Source of the DNA: Candidatus Woesearchaeota archaeon CG10_big_fil_rev_8_21_14_0_10_37_12
GTDB taxonomy: Archaea; Nanobdellota; Nanobdellia; Woesearchaeales; ARS49
DNA: 43,630 nt
Reading direction: 5' to 3'
NCBI GenBank assembly: GCA_002762795.1
Contig: PCYA01000001.1
Location: 1,011-44,640, forward strand
How positions within the stretch are numbered: position 1 is the stretch's first letter; every line of letters starts with the position of its first letter. Positions 1-21,195 of the stretch are shown one piece after another. The translations under genes and the position numbers were made by a program. The notes under the pieces were generated by a model, which saw nothing but the letters and a program-made list of their open reading frames with translations, was not told the DNA's origin and made no database searches.

Positions 1-684
1 CTCAATACCTTTCGACGCAGCAAATTGACTTTCCACAAAATCGTAGCCTTCTTCTCCTTTGAAATCACCAACATACACCCAGTTTTTAGGTGATACTTTG
101 TTTGGAATATATGCGTCAATGCAATCAATTCCAAATTTATCAAAACACGCACGAGAACCCATACCATGAAAGTTGCCTGACGGACTGCTGACTTTAAATC
201 GTCCACTTGCAATTTCTTCAGGTTGACAAAAATCAAAATGCGAATCAAATTGAACAACCAGCACTCTTTTGGGATCAACACGTTGAGCTAATGCGCCAAT
301 GGTTGCATATGTGAAACTATGATCACCGCCAACAACACAAGGAATTTCGCCAGCTTTTAGTGTGCTATTTATTAGTGTTCCAAATTGTCTGGATTCTTTT
401 GCAATGGTTTCATAATACTCCCCATCTGGTACCTTCTCTGGATCTGAAAAGTGAAATTCATCAACTTCACTTCCCGGCCATCTCGGTGAGCCTTTATACC
501 AACTCAGCAGGTTTTCATTCGAACATTTAAACACATCCAGAAAAAAGAGAGATAAGACTTTATCAGGTGCTGTTTCAACACCCTTGCTACTATGATCCTG
601 CCCACTTGGATTGTTTCTTGTTCCCAAACGCGTATACGCTTTGTAAAAATGCGGAATTGTTTTGTTTGTCGTTTTGTTTGTCAT
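1..684 (-). CDS. Arginase-like ureohydrolase, C-terminus off window
   Basis: Reading starts at the ATG complementary to 682-684 and runs open to the left edge (228 codons). The translation contains GGDHSF, the DxHxD-type motif QFDSHFDF and SGNFHG, which are the Mn-binding signatures of the arginase/agmatinase/formimidoylglutamase family. The spacing and the SGNFHG and NWVYVGDF stretches look more like arginase (arginine to ornithine plus urea) than agmatinase; this is a judgement by eye. The C-terminal third, including further metal ligands, is missing only because the window ends. It diverges from a TrmB-type regulator with a urea/amide-type binding domain, which suggests product sensing. 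Formimidoylglutamase remains an alternative. Confidence 0.85.
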   Translation of the reverse strand, partial: MTNKTTNKTIPHFYKAYTRLGTRNNPSGQDHSSKGVETAPDKVLSLFFLDVFKCSNENLLSWYKGSPRWPGSEVDEFHFSDPEKVPDGEYYETIAKESRQFGTLINSTLKAGEIPCVVGGDHSFTYATIGALAQRVDPKRVLVVQFDSHFDFCQPEEIASGRFKVSSPSGNFHGMGSRACFDKFGIDCIDAYIPNKVSPKNWVYVGDFKGEEGYDFVESQFAASKGIE

Positions 685-802
685 TTGTACCACCATTCTT
701 ACTGATGAGTGAAAACAATATAAATTTAAGTGGTATCTAGTGTTATTCTGTGGCTCCTATGGGAACCATAAAATTTAAATACACCTGCATGTTAATACCT
801 TC
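685..802. promoter_or_regulatory. Divergent promoter region with imperfect palindrome
   Basis: The 118-bp gap serves two divergent genes. A TATA-like AAATTTAAATA lies at 771-781, about 27 nt before the ATG at 803, so the regulator mRNA is probably leaderless. An AT-rich TATA-like stretch at 717-730 fits the arginase-like gene on the other strand. Directly beside the regulator's TATA box, 752-767 reads GGCTCCTATGGGAACC, a 16-bp palindrome with three imperfect base pairs, a candidate operator for the TrmB-type protein. Confidence 0.55.
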
Positions 803-2734
803 ATGGATCTCGAACAGCTGAAAGAACTTGGATTAAGCGATGGACAAATCACCGTATACTCTGCCGTGTTAGAACTTGGAACCTCAACATTAAGCACCAT
901 ACAGAAAAAAACAGGCATTGGAAGACGAAACATCTACGATAACCTAAACAAACTTATCGAAAAAGGATTTGTCACATACATTATCAAAGAAGGAAAAAAA
1001 GCATACACGTGTACGCACCCGAACAAAATACAAGAAGATATTGAGATCAAGAAAAAAGCACTCGAACAGCTAGAAAAACAAATTCCACAAATCACTGCAT
1101 TCTTTAAAGAAGTAAAACTAGAAACACAAATTACTGTGTTCAGAGGAAGCGAGTCAATTAAAGCATTGCTAAATGAAGCGCTGACATATGATTCCACTTA
1201 CTGGATTGGTGGAAGCAGTGGAATTGAACAAACCACACTCAGAGCATGGTTTAAAGAATGGATGCTTCGACGAGAAAAACAAAACAAACAAATGTATGAC
1301 TTGAGTACTCAAGGAACACACCTTGAAGAATACCACACAACCGAAACAGAAAAAAACAAAAAACAAAACTACCATTACAAAACACTCCCAGAAGACATAC
1401 TATCTTTCACAACAATTCTTGTTTTTGGAAATAAAGTTGTGCAGATATTATGGAACAAACAACCATTTGCATTTGTTCTTGAATCAAAAGAAGTTAAAGA
1501 AAGCTACTTGAGATTCTTCAACCACTTCTGGAAAGAGGCACCAACCAAAATTGGAACAAAGAATCCTATAAAAATTGGTGTCATCCATTCCCTAACCGGA
1601 ACGATGGCCATTAGCGAATCTTCTCTCGTTGACGCAACGCTCATGGCAGTAGATCAAATCAACCAACAAGGAGGCATATTAGGAAGAAAAATAGAATGTG
1701 CTTTTGTTGACGGAAAATCTAACGAGCAAACATTTGCTGAAGAAGCAGAACGACTCATTACCCAAGAAGAAGTTTGTTCTATATTTGGAGGCTGGACATC
1801 AGCAAGCAGAAAAACGATGAAACCCCTTTTTGAAAAATACAACAACCTCCTCTGGTATCCTGTTGAATATGAAGGACTTGAGGACTCACCAAACATCATT
1901 TACCTTGGATCAACAACAAATCAACAAGTACTCCCTGCAATACAATGGGGAGCAAAAACTCTTGGCAAAAAAATCTTCTTGATTGGGTCTGATTACTTAT
2001 TTCCACGCAGTGTTAACGAACTGGTCAAAATATATGCACAGAACAATGACCTTACAATCGTAGGAGAAGAATATCGCATATTGGGAGATGAACACTTTGA
2101 AACAGTTGTCAAGAACATAAAACGAACAAAACCTGATTTCATATTAAACACAATAAACGGCGATAGCAACGTTGCCTTTTTCAAAGAACTTAAAAAACAA
2201 AACGTCACCCCAGACAAAATTCCAACTATTTCAACAAGCATTGCTGAAGATGAAATTCGCCACCTACCTGTTGAAAATATGGAAGGACATTATGCTGCCT
2301 GGAACTACTTTCAAAGTTTAGACAACAAAGAGAACAAAAAATTTGTCGATGCATTCAAGAAAAGATATGGACCGCACAGAGTTACCTCTGACGCGATGGA
2401 AAAAGCATTCTTAGCAGTTCACTTATTTACAAAAGCTGTTCAAAAAGCAGGCACTGATAATGTGAACGACATACGTGAAGCTGTAAAAGGACTTACAATG
2501 GACACGCCAGAAGGACTTATTACAATCAATAAAACAACAAACCACATAACAACAATCTCACGAATTGGAAGAGTCACAAAAGAAGGACAGTTCGAAATGA
2601 TTTGGAGTTCAAAAGAACCAATCATTGCAGAACCATACCCACAATTCAAAACAAAAGAAGAATGGAACGCATTCACCAACAAACTCCATCATGACTGGGG
2701 AAGAAAATGGGCAAAAGAAGAATCAGAACAATAA
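803..2734 (+). CDS. TrmB-family regulator fused to UrtA/AmiC-like ligand-binding domain
   Basis: Residues 1-75 form a TrmB winged helix-turn-helix (recognition region around GIGRRNIYDNLNKLIEKGF), followed by a coiled-coil linker (about 78-104) and a TrmB-type middle domain (about 108-245). Residues 256-640 form a complete type I periplasmic-binding-protein fold of the urea/short-chain-amide class: IKIGVIHSLTGTMA, GGWTSASRK (329-337) and LLWYPVEYEG (349-358) resemble UrtA/AmiC/FmdD. There is no signal peptide, so the binding domain is cytoplasmic, as in Pseudomonas AmiC. This would be a one-component ligand-sensing regulator. The neighbouring arginase-like gene makes urea or a related amide the obvious candidate ligand (inference). 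Confidence 0.85.
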   Translation: MDLEQLKELGLSDGQITVYSAVLELGTSTLSTIQKKTGIGRRNIYDNLNKLIEKGFVTYIIKEGKKAYTCTHPNKIQEDIEIKKKALEQLEKQIPQITAFFKEVKLETQITVFRGSESIKALLNEALTYDSTYWIGGSSGIEQTTLRAWFKEWMLRREKQNKQMYDLSTQGTHLEEYHTTETEKNKKQNYHYKTLPEDILSFTTILVFGNKVVQILWNKQPFAFVLESKEVKESYLRFFNHFWKEAPTKIGTKNPIKIGVIHSLTGTMAISESSLVDATLMAVDQINQQGGILGRKIECAFVDGKSNEQTFAEEAERLITQEEVCSIFGGWTSASRKTMKPLFEKYNNLLWYPVEYEGLEDSPNIIYLGSTTNQQVLPAIQWGAKTLGKKIFLIGSDYLFPRSVNELVKIYAQNNDLTIVGEEYRILGDEHFETVVKNIKRTKPDFILNTINGDSNVAFFKELKKQNVTPDKIPTISTSIAEDEIRHLPVENMEGHYAAWNYFQSLDNKENKKFVDAFKKRYGPHRVTSDAMEKAFLAVHLFTKAVQKAGTDNVNDIREAVKGLTMDTPEGLITINKTTNHITTISRIGRVTKEGQFEMIWSSKEPIIAEPYPQFKTKEEWNAFTNKLHHDWGRKWAKEESEQ

Positions 2735-2822
2735 CAGCATAATAAGCAAGCATCTACTATAAAAATCTCATTAAAACAAAGAACAAAATTGCTTTTTACG
2801 CATACAACTTGTAAATTCCTCT

Positions 2823-2857
2823 TTTTAGTTTGCAGTAAGTAGTTAACAGTTTGCAGT
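2823..2857. repeat. Heptad repeat array, 5 units
   Basis: Five contiguous 7-bp units read TTTTAGT, TTGCAGT, AAGTAGT, TAACAGT, TTGCAGT. The same register and consensus (NNNCAGT) recur at about ten other places in the window. The array lies between the TrmB fusion gene and the ABC operon. Confidence 0.75.
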
Positions 2858-2897
2858 TATAAAGATTTGGTTTAAAAAACGAAAAACATAATAATGC

Positions 2898-3023: not shown

Positions 3024-4025
3024 ATGGTAACTGAAAACATCATAATACACGTAAAAAATCTTCGCAAGGAATTTGAAACAGTAAAAAGAGGACACGGATT
3101 CCTTGCAGCAGTTAATAGTTTGTTTAACCCAAAAAAAGTCAAAAAGAAAGCGCTCAAAGGAATAAGCTTTGACATCAAAGAAGGAGAAATAGTAGGCTTG
3201 TTAGGACCAAACGGAGCAGGAAAAAGCACATGCCTCAAAGCACTCTCAGGCTTATTATGGCCAGACAGCGGAACAGTCAATATTCTGGGCTATGTGCCAT
3301 GGAAAGAACGAGTAAAATACGTAAAAAACATCGGCGTAGTATTCGGACAAAAAACAACTTTATTTTGGGATTTGCCAGCAATCGATACCTACCACCTCAA
3401 CAAAGACTTATACGAAATGGACAACAAAGAATACGAACAACAAGTACACATGCTCATCAAAAAACTAAACGCAAAAGACATCGTAAAATCACCAGTACGA
3501 GACCTAAGCTTAGGAGAACGCATGCGATGCGAAGTAATACAATCACTACTCCACAAACCAAAACTCGTATTCCTAGATGAACCAACCATAGGACTAGACA
3601 TCATATCAAAAGAAAAACTACGCGAATTCATCTTAGACGTAAACAAAAAAGAAAAAACAACATTCATAGTAACAACACACGACATGCAAGACATAGAAAA
3701 ACTATGCAAACGCGTCATCATCATCAATCACGGAACTATTGTTTACGATGGACTACTTGAAAAAATCAAAAAGAAATTCGCAAAAGACAAACACCTAGAA
3801 GTAAAACTATCAGAAAAAGCAAAACCCTTCAAATTCAAAGGATGCAAAGTACTTAACGCAACAGACTACGAACTAAAACTAGAACTTGACACGCGCAAGG
3901 CAAAAGTCAAAGACTTAATCGGATACTTAATGGAACACTTTGACGTAGCAGACATTATCGTATCAGACCCGCCAATAGAAGAAATCATTGCAGAAATATT
4001 CCAGAAAAAAGGTACAACATTATGA
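3024..4025 (+). CDS. ABC-2 type exporter ATPase
   Basis: The 333-residue ATPase has Walker A GPNGAGKST (61-69), signature LSLGERMR (161-168), Walker B LVFLDEPT (181-188) and switch TTHD (217-220). The extended N-terminus, the insert before the first strand and the pairing with two dissimilar permeases resemble the COG4586/COG4587/COG3694 exporter group, whose substrates are mostly unknown. ATG 3024 is chosen because GAGGAG lies just upstream. The stop overlaps the next start (ATGA), so translation is coupled. It acts at the inner face of the membrane and powers export; the substrate cannot be read from the sequence. Confidence 0.9.
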   Translation: MVTENIIIHVKNLRKEFETVKRGHGFLAAVNSLFNPKKVKKKALKGISFDIKEGEIVGLLGPNGAGKSTCLKALSGLLWPDSGTVNILGYVPWKERVKYVKNIGVVFGQKTTLFWDLPAIDTYHLNKDLYEMDNKEYEQQVHMLIKKLNAKDIVKSPVRDLSLGERMRCEVIQSLLHKPKLVFLDEPTIGLDIISKEKLREFILDVNKKEKTTFIVTTHDMQDIEKLCKRVIIINHGTIVYDGLLEKIKKKFAKDKHLEVKLSEKAKPFKFKGCKVLNATDYELKLELDTRKAKVKDLIGYLMEHFDVADIIVSDPPIEEIIAEIFQKKGTTL

Positions 4026-4813
4026 GCTTTTGCCAACACAAAGGAATGGCCCTGGCAGGATTCAAAATAGCAATACGATACAGATGGGAAAACATCGCAC
4101 AAGTACTCACAAACCCAATTTCACTGATCGTATATTACTTTCTCTGGAAAGCAATCTATGCCTACACAGGACAAGAAATAATCAGAGGATTCACATTTCC
4201 AGACTTAGTACACTACTACGTCCTTGCAATGATAGTAGGATTTTTCACCTGGTCAGAAGTAGACAAATGGATAGAATACGACGTCATCCACGGAAAAATG
4301 ACCAATGCGTTAATCAGACCATTCGGCTTTCTATACTGGTATTTAAGCTTTGAAACAGGAATAAGCATTTACAACCTAATAGTACAAACAATACCTGTAT
4401 TCATCATCGGATTTATCTTCTTTAACTTACAAGTACAAGGACTCACAGTTTTTCTAGGGTTCTTTGCATCAACAACACTCGCATTCTTCATCTACTTCGG
4501 TCTTGCCTTTTTGTTAGGTCTAGCAGCATTCTGGATGAAAAGAATAACAGGATTAAGAAGAGTACGCAGAATCATCATCGGATTTCTCGGAGGAAGCTTC
4601 ATCCCACTTACCTTTTTCCCGAACTGGTTACAACAAATTTCACACTTTCTACCATTTGAATACGTACGATCAGTACCAATACTTGTTTATTTAGAAAGAA
4701 TATCAATTTTTAACGCATTAGCCACACAACTTATCTGGATGATAATCATTTACCTGCTAATCCACATAATATCAAAAAAAGCCATCAAAAGATACGCAAG
4801 CGTAGGACTATAA
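4022..4813 (+). CDS. ABC-2 exporter permease, first subunit
   Basis: A 263-residue integral membrane protein with about six hydrophobic segments, beginning with a short amphipathic N-terminus. The patterns YRWENIAQVLTNPIS and VIHGKMTNALIRPF match permeases that accompany COG4586-type ATPases (COG4587-like). It overlaps the ATPase gene by 4 bp and is followed 4 bp later by the second permease, so the three form one transcription unit. The start could also be the internal ATG at 4046. Confidence 0.85.
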   Translation: MSFCQHKGMALAGFKIAIRYRWENIAQVLTNPISLIVYYFLWKAIYAYTGQEIIRGFTFPDLVHYYVLAMIVGFFTWSEVDKWIEYDVIHGKMTNALIRPFGFLYWYLSFETGISIYNLIVQTIPVFIIGFIFFNLQVQGLTVFLGFFASTTLAFFIYFGLAFLLGLAAFWMKRITGLRRVRRIIIGFLGGSFIPLTFFPNWLQQISHFLPFEYVRSVPILVYLERISIFNALATQLIWMIIIYLLIHIISKKAIKRYASVGL

Positions 4814-4817
4814 AAAC

Positions 4818-5603
4818 ATGAAATATCTAAAATTAGCAACAAGAAGCATACAAATACACCTAAACAAAGAATTCGCATACAAAGCAGACTTCATCACAAA
4901 AATAATCTCAACAATGATCGCTGACTTTGTCGGACCACTCCTCGCAATAATCATCTACAACACAACAATAGGCATACCCGGATGGACACTCCACGAATTT
5001 TTATTATTCCAAGGAACACTAATCATGGTATTAGGACTAACAAAAATATTCATCCTAAGCATGTTCTGGCACGTCTACGAAGCAGTAGAAGAAGGACAAT
5101 TCCACAAATACCTGCTAAAACCATACAACTCACTCCTATTCCTGATGGCAATCAGCATAGACTGGCAAGGAATAGTAGAATTTACAGTAGGAGCATTAAT
5201 TGCAAGCTACGCAATGAGCTACTTAAACATAAATTTTATTAGCTTTGGATTTTTGTTTTATATCATCCTGATACTTCTAGGTGTGTTATTTCACGCAGCA
5301 ATATACACCATGATCAGCGCAGGAAGCATCATAGCAGTAAAAAACGAAGCACTACTGCATCTGTTTTTCAAACTCACAGACTTTGCAAGATGGCCACTTA
5401 CCGTGTTTGGCATTGGATTTCAAATATTCCTAACATTCTTCTTCCCAATCGCAGTAAGCGCGTTTTATCCAGTGGATGTTTTATTGCGTGGTGTAAGCAT
5501 TCCCTGGCTAATTGCAATCATATTACCAGTACTTGCAGCATTCGGCATTTCCATATGGATGTGGAGCTACGCAATCAAAAAACACACAAGTGCAGGAGGA
5601 TAG
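4818..5603 (+). CDS. ABC-2 exporter permease, second subunit
   Basis: A 261-residue protein with about six membrane segments. Features such as FWHVYEAVEEGQFHKYLLKPYN (a cytoplasmic loop of this family) and FPIAVSAFYPVDVLLRG near the C-terminus match the COG3694-like permease. With the preceding permease and ATPase it would form a heteromeric exporter. The gene ends at 5603 and is followed by degenerate heptad-like sequence and a large palindromic element, consistent with the end of the operon. Confidence 0.85.
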   Translation: MKYLKLATRSIQIHLNKEFAYKADFITKIISTMIADFVGPLLAIIIYNTTIGIPGWTLHEFLLFQGTLIMVLGLTKIFILSMFWHVYEAVEEGQFHKYLLKPYNSLLFLMAISIDWQGIVEFTVGALIASYAMSYLNINFISFGFLFYIILILLGVLFHAAIYTMISAGSIIAVKNEALLHLFFKLTDFARWPLTVFGIGFQIFLTFFFPIAVSAFYPVDVLLRGVSIPWLIAIILPVLAAFGISIWMWSYAIKKHTSAGG

Positions 5604-17743: not shown

Positions 17744-18178
17744 ATGACCAAAGTACTCTGTACAGGCACCTTTGATTTGCTACACAAAGGACATCTTAAT
17801 TATTTCGAACAAGCAAAAAAACTAGGAAATCATCTCATAGTAGTTGTTGCAAGAGACAAAACAATTGAAAAAGAACGAGGAATATTGCCAATATATAACG
17901 AAAAAGAAAGATTAAAAAAAATTGCAGAACAAAAAAATGTTGACAAAGCAAGACTTGGACATGAAGAAGATAAATTAAAAGTTGTCGAGGAAGAACGCCC
18001 CGATATCATCCTGCTCGGTTACGACCAAAAAATAAACAAGAAAGAACTATCCAAAAAACTCGCACAACGAGGACTTCACCCAAAAATACTTCGTGCCAAA
18101 GCATACAAATCTGAACAATACAAAAGTTCACTACTTAAAAAATTAATAAATAAAGTCTCGCTGATATGCATCTGTTGA
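17744..18178 (+). CDS. ribL: FAD synthase / FMN adenylyltransferase RibL
   Basis: A 144-residue nucleotidyltransferase. GTFDLLHKGHLNYFEQAKKL carries the HxGH signature, and PDIILLGYDQ and KAYKSEQYKSS match archaeal RibL, which makes FAD from FMN and ATP (or CTP). Related glycerol-3-phosphate cytidylyltransferases share the fold, but the length and C-terminus favour RibL. A TATA-like ATATATAA lies at about 17711-17718. The 3' end overlaps the convergent secreted-protein gene by 36 bp. Confidence 0.85.
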   Translation: MTKVLCTGTFDLLHKGHLNYFEQAKKLGNHLIVVVARDKTIEKERGILPIYNEKERLKKIAEQKNVDKARLGHEEDKLKVVEEERPDIILLGYDQKINKKELSKKLAQRGLHPKILRAKAYKSEQYKSSLLKKLINKVSLICIC

Positions 18179-19741
18179 TTTACTTGTTGCTGTTCCTTCT
18201 TGCTGAGACTCAGCACCCATATTCGGAACAAATGTATCACCAGATTTTTGCCAACCAAGCCAGTCGCAACTTACTGTTAACACACAGTTTGTGCCACACG
18301 AACATTGAGCAGTCGAACCACACGCAACATTGCCACAAGGCGTGTTACAATATACTGGTCCAGGAATTGCCTCAACAGAAGGGGCCTGCGAGGAATAACA
18401 CGTACAAGAACCTCCCTCTACATTACTACCAGTAACACGAACACTTGACTGCGGCGTAACACGTGCCCCATTCACACACATAAAACTATTCAGCTGCGAA
18501 AGAATTGCAGCAGAATGATCAGGCTGAGAGGTCAACAAACCACGCTCACTACAAACAGAAGCACAAGAAAGAATAACAGGCTCTTCTTGCTCAACAACGT
18601 AATCATCATATTCATCATATGCTTCTTCAGCTTCTTGCTGCTGACGCCACGTCTGATAATAAGGCACCAGAGGACGACTACCACCACTTGTAGCTCCTCC
18701 ACCACCTTGCGGAGGCATTGGAGTAGGTGTTGTAACTGGAGGCTCTTCCTCTTCTTCTGTTTCATTCACATCATCAATAAGTGTTAGCAATTCCTCGCCA
18801 ACACACCTATCACCAACAGGACACATGCAATTACTTTGACAAGTTGACAAAGCACACCCACCATCAGGCAAAGCAACAGGAGGACAACTTGGAGAACCAG
18901 GCAATTCGCATTGCTCACCAAAACCTAACACGCCATCTCCACAAACAGGAACTCTGTTTCCTCCTTGAGGAGGCTGCAATGGCTGAGGTGGTTGCACAGG
19001 AGGCATAGGACACTGACAATCATTCGTACAATAATGAGCAGAAACACCAGAAGCTCCTGTTACACCTGAAGTTAACGCACACAAACCACCAGGAGGATCA
19101 CACTGCTCTCCTGCTTGTGAATCAACATAGTCATCACCACAAAAACCAATCGCTTGCTGACACAAACAATTAGGCAAACAAACACTTCCAGCAGTACACT
19201 GATTTTCAGGAATAGTTAAATCACCCCAATCACACTGCTCAGTCAACCTATCAAGAACACCATCACCACACTGCCCTTGCGGTTGCTGACACTGACAAAG
19301 CGCATTACAAACACCATCTGCTGCGCACACAGTACCAAGACCATCACACTGTTCACCTGCATCAACAACACCATTACCACAGGTTGCAGGCGAAGATATA
19401 CACGCTGCTCCCTGATGAGACTCAACACACCCAGCAAAACCATGATCAATACAATTATAATCAGTAAATGTTGCTCTATTGCGTAAACAAGAAATCTCGC
19501 GAACAGTTAAACTTGATAATACACGCTCACCATCCTGATCAACACAAGTATCTTGATACAAACCAGATGTATCTCTTGTTTGACCTGGAAGTGCGATAAA
19601 TGGTAAAGGCTTATTTGCTGTTGGGCCCCCATCACTATCAGAACAAATACCAAACAACCAGACAAGCCAACCAGGCATTTGCGCAGAAACAGGAATAGCA
19701 AACAAAGAAATTAAGACAATCAATACAATAAACTTTTTCAC
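18143..19741 (-). CDS. Secreted cysteine-rich protein with DUF4215-like repeats
   Basis: A 532-residue exported protein with a clear signal peptide (MKKFIVLIVLISLFAIPVSAQ). Four Cys-rich repeats follow, each with a CGDGVLD...GEQCD core, resembling DUF4215 repeats found in surface proteins of bacteria and some archaea; each probably binds metal or is disulfide-bonded. A Pro-rich linker (PPVQPPQPLQPPQGG), an acidic Thr/Pro-rich segment, a Tyr/Glu stretch (EAEEAYDEYDDYV) and a second Cys-rich block complete it. No C-terminal membrane anchor is visible, so it is secreted or held by partners. Confidence 0.8.
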   Translation of the reverse strand: MKKFIVLIVLISLFAIPVSAQMPGWLVWLFGICSDSDGGPTANKPLPFIALPGQTRDTSGLYQDTCVDQDGERVLSSLTVREISCLRNRATFTDYNCIDHGFAGCVESHQGAACISSPATCGNGVVDAGEQCDGLGTVCAADGVCNALCQCQQPQGQCGDGVLDRLTEQCDWGDLTIPENQCTAGSVCLPNCLCQQAIGFCGDDYVDSQAGEQCDPPGGLCALTSGVTGASGVSAHYCTNDCQCPMPPVQPPQPLQPPQGGNRVPVCGDGVLGFGEQCELPGSPSCPPVALPDGGCALSTCQSNCMCPVGDRCVGEELLTLIDDVNETEEEEEPPVTTPTPMPPQGGGGATSGGSRPLVPYYQTWRQQQEAEEAYDEYDDYVVEQEEPVILSCASVCSERGLLTSQPDHSAAILSQLNSFMCVNGARVTPQSSVRVTGSNVEGGSCTCYSSQAPSVEAIPGPVYCNTPCGNVACGSTAQCSCGTNCVLTVSCDWLGWQKSGDTFVPNMGAESQQEGTATSKSTDAYQRDFIY

Positions 19742-20388: not shown

Positions 20389-21156
20389 TTAATCAGGTAA
20401 CCTAGTTCTATCTACAAAATCAAGCCAACCACAAATACCGTTTGCGAGCTGATCTAATGTATCATCTTCAAACGTATTTTTCCCTGCAAACATACCCCAC
20501 CACGACGGAAGCGGTGCTGAACCTCCACCGGGCAAATTAAGAATGGGTCCTGATTTCATACTTTCAATTAATTGAGTATATACATCAGCAAGTTCACCAG
20601 TAGCCCTAGCAACCATACTCTCATCTGCTGAAGCAACAGTAATCATTTGCGGAACAATGACTTTACCCATCACTCGTTCATACAATGAAAAACGAACTTC
20701 CAAAAGTTTACTATTAGTGTCATCTGCTTTTAATGATAAAATAACACGCTCACGCAACGTTCCAGGAACATAAAACTCTCCTTGTTTTCCCTGACCCCAA
20801 GAGTGACGCAATGCAACACCATTAGAATTTCTAAAAACAGTTCTATAATGATCATCATTACGATCAGGCATTGGCCAATCTAACTTACGATACGAGCTTA
20901 TCATTGCACTCAATAACGGCAATGGCTGCGCTGGTTTTACAATAGATTTAAGACCGCCAAGCTCATAATCCCGACCATCAAGCTCTTCAAGTTTAAGACC
21001 ATATCTATTAAATAAATTTTCTTCAAGACCATCCAACTCAGATGAACGATCAACTAATTCTCTTTCACGCGCGTCAAGTGCAGCAGAACGCTCGTCTAAC
21101 TTTCGCTTATAATCTCCTCGTGCCCTTGCAAGATCATATTCTCCTTGTCCGCCCAT
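20389..21156 (-). CDS. Hypothetical protein with N-terminal coiled coil
   Basis: A 255-residue protein from ATG 21156, chosen because GAGGT lies 6 nt upstream; a GTG five codons earlier is possible. Residues 10-65 are a charged coiled coil (RKLDERSAALDARERELVDR), followed by a globular part with LLEVRFSLYERVMGKVIVPQ. That part shows a faint resemblance to the following gene's product (LELRVHLVSL, then a strand), so the two may be distant paralogues. The function is unknown. Confidence 0.7.
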   Translation of the reverse strand: MGGQGEYDLARARGDYKRKLDERSAALDARERELVDRSSELDGLEENLFNRYGLKLEELDGRDYELGGLKSIVKPAQPLPLLSAMISSYRKLDWPMPDRNDDHYRTVFRNSNGVALRHSWGQGKQGEFYVPGTLRERVILSLKADDTNSKLLEVRFSLYERVMGKVIVPQMITVASADESMVARATGELADVYTQLIESMKSGPILNLPGGGSAPLPSWWGMFAGKNTFEDDTLDQLANGICGWLDFVDRTRLPD

Positions 21157-21195
21157 TTTAAACCTCGTCACCTCAGAGTAGTAATGTATTCATTT

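Follow-up and report, generated by a model that had tools for sequence, protein, structure and literature searches.

We describe an archaeal gene in which a TrmB-type DNA-binding module is joined in frame to a complete UrtA-type receptor, and which diverges from the gene of an arginase-family hydrolase. The architecture of the protein and its cytoplasmic location are near certain, whereas the ligand, the operator, the sign of regulation, and the substrate of the enzyme are features that we infer. On balance, the protein is rather probably a cytoplasmic one-component regulator in which a urea-like ligand closes the flytrap and sets transcription of the hydrolase and of its own gene; that it acts as a one-component regulator on its own cassette can be held with good confidence.

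The window, that is the whole stretch of 43,630 nucleotides analysed (contig C13, positions 1011-44640), comes from a 1.35-Mb genome in 19 contigs, 99% complete, and has CDC48, GatD/GatE, and an archaeal-type CCA-adding enzyme among its genes, which mark it as archaeal; the size of the genome and its relatives would suit one of the DPANN archaea with small genomes. Two ORFs on the minus strand, 18143-19741 (532 aa) and 20389-21171 (260 aa), have no Pfam match at 1e-6. Downstream of the fusion gene and on the same strand lies an ABC-2 exporter (about 3024-5603). The end coordinate of the fusion gene and the divergent layout given in a preliminary description of this DNA were correct on re-examination of the ORFs and the genome. 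The features discussed below are as follows.

1-696, minus strand: arginase-family (ureohydrolase) gene, 5' two thirds, 232 aa (PF00491, E 4.4e-15; motifs).
697-802, no strand: divergent promoter region of 106 bp between the hydrolase and fusion genes.
803-2734, plus strand: TrmB-UrtA fusion gene, a single ORF with an ATG start, 643 aa.
818-1021, plus strand: TrmB winged helix-turn-helix (HTH), residues 6-73 (PF01978, E 1.4e-13).
1022-1552, plus strand: dimerisation helix and second domain of TrmBL2 type, residues 74-250 (profile match to TrmBL2 5bpd).
1568-2650, plus strand: UrtA-type Venus-flytrap domain, residues 256-616 (PF13433, Peripla_BP_5, E 2.4e-146).
1865-1867, plus strand: Glu355 codon (GAA), which aligns with UrtA Gln144 (PMC10392092).
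2633-2722, plus strand: C-terminal tail PYPQFKTKEEWNAFTNKLHHDWGRKWAKE, found in UrtA proteins of the signalling type but not in transporter UrtAs.
2751-2879, plus strand: right direct repeat, a decayed duplicate of the start of the PEP-synthase gene and of the sequence upstream of it (74% identity, E 1e-17).
C13:559-675, outside the window: left direct repeat, made up of the opening 17 codons of a PEP-synthase-like gene and the region upstream of them.

In the DNA-binding half, PF01978 scores 50.9 bits against a cut-off of 25.6 and lies in the same ORF as the receptor, which bears out the fused TrmB module named in the preliminary description. A profile built from 45 TrmB proteins, drawn from this genome and related ones and including residues 1-250 of the window protein, matches the TrmBL2 crystal structure 5bpd end to end over residues 7-250 (E 1.5e-16). 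TrmB regulators consist of an HTH, a dimerisation helix, and a C-terminal domain, and an extra C-terminal sugar-binding domain is found only in TrmB and TrmBL1 (PMC4877046, PMC4158304). In the fusion protein the sugar-binding domain PF11495 has no Pfam match, and the TrmB and TrmBL1 equivalog models give 28-33 bits versus the 600-650 needed; the UrtA domain occupies the place that the sugar domain would take. The genome has 41 TrmB matches. Because the nearest stand-alone relative of this half, a TrmB of the related genome G050, is 50% identical over residues 1-245, the DNA-binding half is native to the lineage. In two TrmB proteins of relatives, of 787 and 526 aa (L184:1488-3851 and L185:1839-3419), the second domain is apparently repeated in tandem.

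The C-terminal half had been described as a UrtA/AmiC-type binding domain, and Pfam, NCBIfam, and structure matches agree on UrtA. The NCBIfam UrtA model TIGR03407 scores 480 bits, narrowly under its cut-off of 492.75. Among solved structures, four UrtA urea-binding proteins come closest (E 1e-119 to 1e-93, 44-47% identity), followed by AmiC (1e-50, 29% identity), with LivJ-type proteins far behind. A LivJ-type identity is ruled out by the model scores (41.9 bits only for PRK15404) and the pocket residues, which excludes the outcome of matches to LivJ alone; AmiC is likewise ruled out by the scores and by the pocket, where the window residues follow UrtA at positions at which AmiC differs. Only the flytrap half of the AF2 model was used: it is mostly at pLDDT 85-97, with TM 0.94 to the Caldicellulosiruptor urea-binding protein 8tg1 and 0.87-0.88 to three UrtA-urea complexes. 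The TrmB half was modelled poorly (pLDDT below 50 at residues 103-148, 160-229, and 239-252) because the alignment contained no TrmB rows.

The fusion protein starts with the HTH and therefore has no signal peptide, and none of its 19-residue windows reaches the hydrophobicity of a membrane segment (maximum Kyte-Doolittle value 1.51), in agreement with the cytoplasmic location proposed earlier. Neither export feature of the UrtA family, signal peptide or anchor, was found in it. No UrtBC/Liv permease neighbours the locus; the sole permease pair of the genome lies on another contig, C3. The genome has one LivHMGF transporter, so many of its flytrap receptors may share this single set. Genes for TrmB proteins of about 245 aa repeatedly adjoin genes for stand-alone flytrap lipoproteins of about 370 aa with a lipobox, often divergently and far from permeases, both in this genome (L076, L081-L084) and in relatives (L085-L095, L100). 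In a sample unbiased for adjacency, a divergent TrmB gene stood at 5 of 28 receptors and an Lrp-like regulator, judged by eye, at at least four more. Lipoproteins with two tandem flytrap domains also occur in relatives (L188:1133-3316, L189:1844-4129).

In Prochlorococcus UrtA, urea is surrounded by Trp120, Ser122, Tyr141, Gln144, Glu146, Tyr190, Phe192, Asn246, and Ser274; the side and main chains of Gln144 bind both urea nitrogens, and its mutation strongly lowers or abolishes binding (PMC10392092). Eight of these nine residues are kept in the fusion protein, the exception being Gln144, which is replaced by Glu355. Among the 80 nearest homologues this position is Gln in 79 and Gly in one, in a search where one of the two scan patterns required Q, E, or P there. 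Glu355 can still accept hydrogen bonds from urea, and its carboxylate would also suit a cation. Since the residue could serve either, we infer only a "urea-like" ligand: the chances that it is urea or a closely similar neutral amide appear evenly balanced, and a guanidinium-type ligand is possible though rather unlikely. The Gln-to-Glu change is a specific caution against naming urea from the remaining pocket residues.

The closest precedents for the receptor are UrtA-like proteins coupled to kinases, a group absent from the reasoning of the preliminary description. A careful tree of 43 UrtA-like domains pairs the window protein, on a long end branch (0.78), with a thaumarchaeal protein (L103, 58% identical) at support 100/98. 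The pair adjoins two cyanobacterial proteins (90/89), and the 24 transporter-side rows, solved UrtAs included, form a set that excludes the window protein (99/99). The 16 signalling-type rows are a clade in a quick tree of 85 rows (SH-aLRT 90) and a grade, with two changes, in the careful tree. Among the 15 other proteins of this group, 13 adjoin a gene for a histidine kinase or SpoIIE phosphatase and two are fused to Ser/Thr kinases. By a Pfam scan of the partners, dCache histidine kinases adjoin L103, L105, L109, L111, L122, L124, L125, L135, and L143, a HAMP histidine kinase adjoins L107, SpoIIE phosphatases adjoin L104, L110, and L158, and the Ser/Thr kinases are fused in L106 and L108. 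No LivH/LivM-like permease was found within the fetched flanks of these 15 loci, versus 51 of 57 transporter-side loci with one. The window protein retains the tail consensus of the group, PYPxxxSKxEWxxFLxxLYxxWxxxWA; it has no kinase or phosphatase partner, its partner being the fused TrmB. Thus, by tree position and the shared tail, the window protein belongs to the signalling UrtA lineage, a DNA-binding module having taken the place of the N-terminal anchor. We also considered, and rejected, a local origin of both halves, in which a TrmB had fused with the lipoprotein receptor paired with it: PF13433 gives the UrtA half 490 bits and the other receptors scored in the same genome at most 90, and the UrtA half resembles the signalling proteins of bacteria and the thaumarchaeon far more than it does local receptors. 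The receptor half was therefore acquired from outside.

TIGR03407 scores 519 and 527 bits on L103 and L104, above its cut-off, and would therefore name them urea transporter proteins. The kinase- and phosphatase-coupled UrtA-like group probably represents a widespread system for sensing urea or amides that has been misnamed as transport. For a flytrap protein that works with a kinase, LuxP-LuxQ offers a known parallel. Several further architectures were seen. Cyanobacterial fusions of UrtA to histidine kinases (L128:5950-8418, L157:827-3736, L177:5962-8523), seemingly without a signal peptide, are possibly cytoplasmic-facing urea-sensing kinases; the fusions to Ser/Thr kinases are from Planctomycetota (L106:4786-7167, L108:2880-5297); and a deltaproteobacterial protein of 1517 aa (L112:2446-6999) combines two UrtA domains with HEAT repeats.

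The fusion and the hydrolase gene are flanked by direct repeats. The genome has exactly two copies of the 22-mer TTATAAAGATTTGGTTTAAAAA (C13:653-674 and C13:3867-3888), one just beyond the stop codon of the hydrolase gene and one just beyond that of the fusion gene. Longer repeats around it, at 559-675 (117 bp) and 3761-3889 (129 bp) of the extended locus L021, are 74% identical over 129 columns (E 1e-17). In a relative of the same family (G013), the PEP synthase diverges directly from the ABC-2 exporter with nothing between, and the three genes of that exporter are 67, 61, and 50% identical to those of the window. Because of the repeats and the uninterrupted site, an empty site known from one relative, the two genes look like one inserted cassette; the simplest reading of these sequences is that a unit of approximately 3.1 kb, hydrolase plus regulator, was inserted between two old neighbours and that the target region was duplicated in the process. 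Insertion as the direction of change is suggested by the decayed duplicate and by the absence of both genes elsewhere. Such a cassette supports a functional unit of enzyme and regulator, and is evidence for their link independent of conserved pairing.

The complete hydrolase gene (C13/L021:684-1706, minus strand, 340 aa) runs beyond the start of the window. Directly before window base 1 it contains a run of 45 Ns (C13/L021:966-1010; 15 codons, frame kept), which is either a scaffold gap or a mask. PF00491 scores 110 bits over the whole gene, and all three metal motifs (GGDHS, DSHFD, and DIDV) are present, together with the arginase loop SPSGNFHGM. In arginases this loop handles the amino-acid end of arginine. 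The hydrolase is nearer to arginases than to "agmatinase 2" structures; the hutG model scores 81.2 bits, and the RocF arginase equivalog TIGR01229 reaches 78.9 bits against a cut-off of 227.6, some score being removed by the 45-N run. Thus the earlier description of an arginase-like ureohydrolase diverging from the fusion stands as to family, metal motifs, and gene orientation, but does not extend to a true arginase. As the score is far under the equivalog cut-off and the family also contains guanidinases (GdmH; PMC12186494), the substrate is not fixed as arginine. A separate agmatinase is encoded at C9:2296-3072 (TIGR01230, 201.5 bits), and neither urease nor the arginine deiminase family is present in the genome. 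An arginase-type enzyme would yield urea as its end product, in which case a sensor of urea would report either the flux through the enzyme or outside urea; for a sensor of the guanidino substrate, the ligand would act as an inducer.

In the divergent region, the TATA-like sequence AAATTTAAATA (about 771-781) precedes the fusion gene and TATAAATTTAA (about 719-729) precedes the hydrolase gene. An imperfect palindrome, TGGCTCC-TATG-GGAACCA (751-768), is unique of its kind in the genome; an operator search across the 106 bp gave nothing significant, this palindrome having P of about 0.25 against shuffles.

The fusion and its pairing with the hydrolase are each known from one genome. The pairing is not conserved in relatives, an outcome that the preliminary description had itself named as counting against its reading. 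A UrtA-type domain at E <= 1e-20 occurs in one of 381 relatives, the source genome itself; in a phylum-wide sample of 371 genomes, 36 have PF13433-type receptors, and the best other UrtA match is 113 bits versus 490. Across the 80 nearest UrtA loci in GTDB genomes, no reading frame combines the receptor with a TrmB, and non-exhaustive scans of the 381 relatives and these loci gave no second fusion. A first scan of the genome collection with the whole protein found nothing, nor did viral contigs. With the 232-aa part as query, no hydrolase homologue at 1e-8 was found in 143 relatives, and none occurs in the UrtA loci. No description of a TrmB-flytrap fusion or a kinase-coupled UrtA was found in the open-access literature, which was partially covered.

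These observations suggest the following mechanism. A TrmBL2-type module (HTH, dimerisation helix, and second domain) would have received a UrtA-type flytrap from the signalling lineage. The flytrap would close on a small urea-like molecule, with urea as the first candidate and a guanidinium or amidine-type cation as the second; at the 106-bp divergent promoter, closure would alter the TrmB dimer or tetramer and thereby set transcription of the hydrolase and of the regulator itself. The fusion protein probably switches the hydrolase on or off by this means. Against it count the Glu at position 144, the single-genome fusion and pairing, the lack of a significant operator, the low arginase score, and the absence of a urease that would use urea.

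The last of these points, and the carboxylate placed where the urea NH2 groups are held, would fit the same regulator with a guanidinium-type ligand, guanidine or the guanidino substrate of the hydrolase, so that a substrate sensor would control what may be a guanidine- or guanidino-hydrolase. In urea and guanidine carboxylases, an analogous and chemically similar Asn/Asp difference sets apart the use of urea and of guanidine, and GdmH is of the arginase family (PMC12186494). However, the hydrolase retains the arginase loop and stands closer to arginases than to the "agmatinase 2" structures, the backbone NH of UrtA Ser122 donates to a urea oxygen that guanidinium lacks, and Glu can accept from urea too; we therefore regard this reading as possible but not likely. 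It is improbable that the flytrap binds no ligand of the urea class and serves in oligomerisation or is a decayed domain, with the TrmBL2-type part alone regulating. The changed key residue, the long end branch, and the fact that TrmBL2 itself works without an effector domain (PMC4877046) are consistent with this, but the domain is full-length, with the other pocket residues intact and the signalling-type tail retained.

Control mainly of the downstream exporter, rather than of the hydrolase, is suggested by its place as the next gene on the same strand. The cassette insertion argues against it: relative G013 has the same exporter beside PEP synthase without a regulator, and the remnant of the PEP-synthase upstream region lies between regulator and exporter, which makes this target very improbable. 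Least credible is a chimeric assembly of unrelated TrmB and UrtA genes. The single genome, its 19 contigs, and the nearby 45-N run would allow it, but the junction is in frame and free of Ns, codon use is host-like in both halves, and the membrane anchor of the UrtA half is lost exactly at the junction.

If the preferred reading of a urea-responsive regulator of the hydrolase is true, an archaeal regulator has changed the signal that it senses by swapping an effector domain for a whole extracellular-type receptor, and the TrmB frame would then provide a soluble biosensor for urea or guanidine. In a bolder version, which we think unlikely, the locus is a portable cassette of enzyme and sensor, with the first TrmB regulator to carry a kinase-lineage flytrap, retuned from urea to guanidinium by the single Gln-to-Glu change, and a hydrolase induced by its own substrate. 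The locus also draws attention to a group of proteins that the standard model names urea transporter proteins, and yet occur with kinases and phosphatases in many bacteria and a thaumarchaeon.

Five known systems resemble the fusion protein in part. The binding proteins of UrtA ABC transporters (7s6e, 7s6f, 8hic, 8tg1) have the same fold and identity in the range given above, with eight of nine urea contacts in common; in contrast, the fusion lacks a signal peptide and UrtBCDE, has Glu for Gln144, and is attached to a DNA-binding protein. AmiC-AmiR of the Pseudomonas amidase operon is alike in that a cytoplasmic amide-binding flytrap controls a catabolic gene, but AmiC is 29% identical, shares about four of the nine pocket residues, and needs a separate antitermination partner. 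The Thermococcales sugar regulators TrmB and TrmBL1 share the PF01978 winged HTH, the dimerisation helix, the second domain, the C-terminal position of the effector, and the cytoplasmic one-component logic; their effector is the PF11495 sugar-binding domain, whereas here it is a UrtA-type flytrap. TrmBL2 (5bpd, 5bqt) aligns by profile end to end with the N-terminal 250 residues and has no effector domain, unlike the fusion protein. Finally, the UrtA-like signalling proteins (L103-L111 and others) are the nearest sequences, with the same C-terminal tail and no permease nearby. They act through kinases or phosphatases and mostly have an anchor or signal-like segment at the N-terminus, and Gln144 is conserved in those examined apart from one with Gly, whereas the window protein would act through TrmB, has no such segment, and has Glu.
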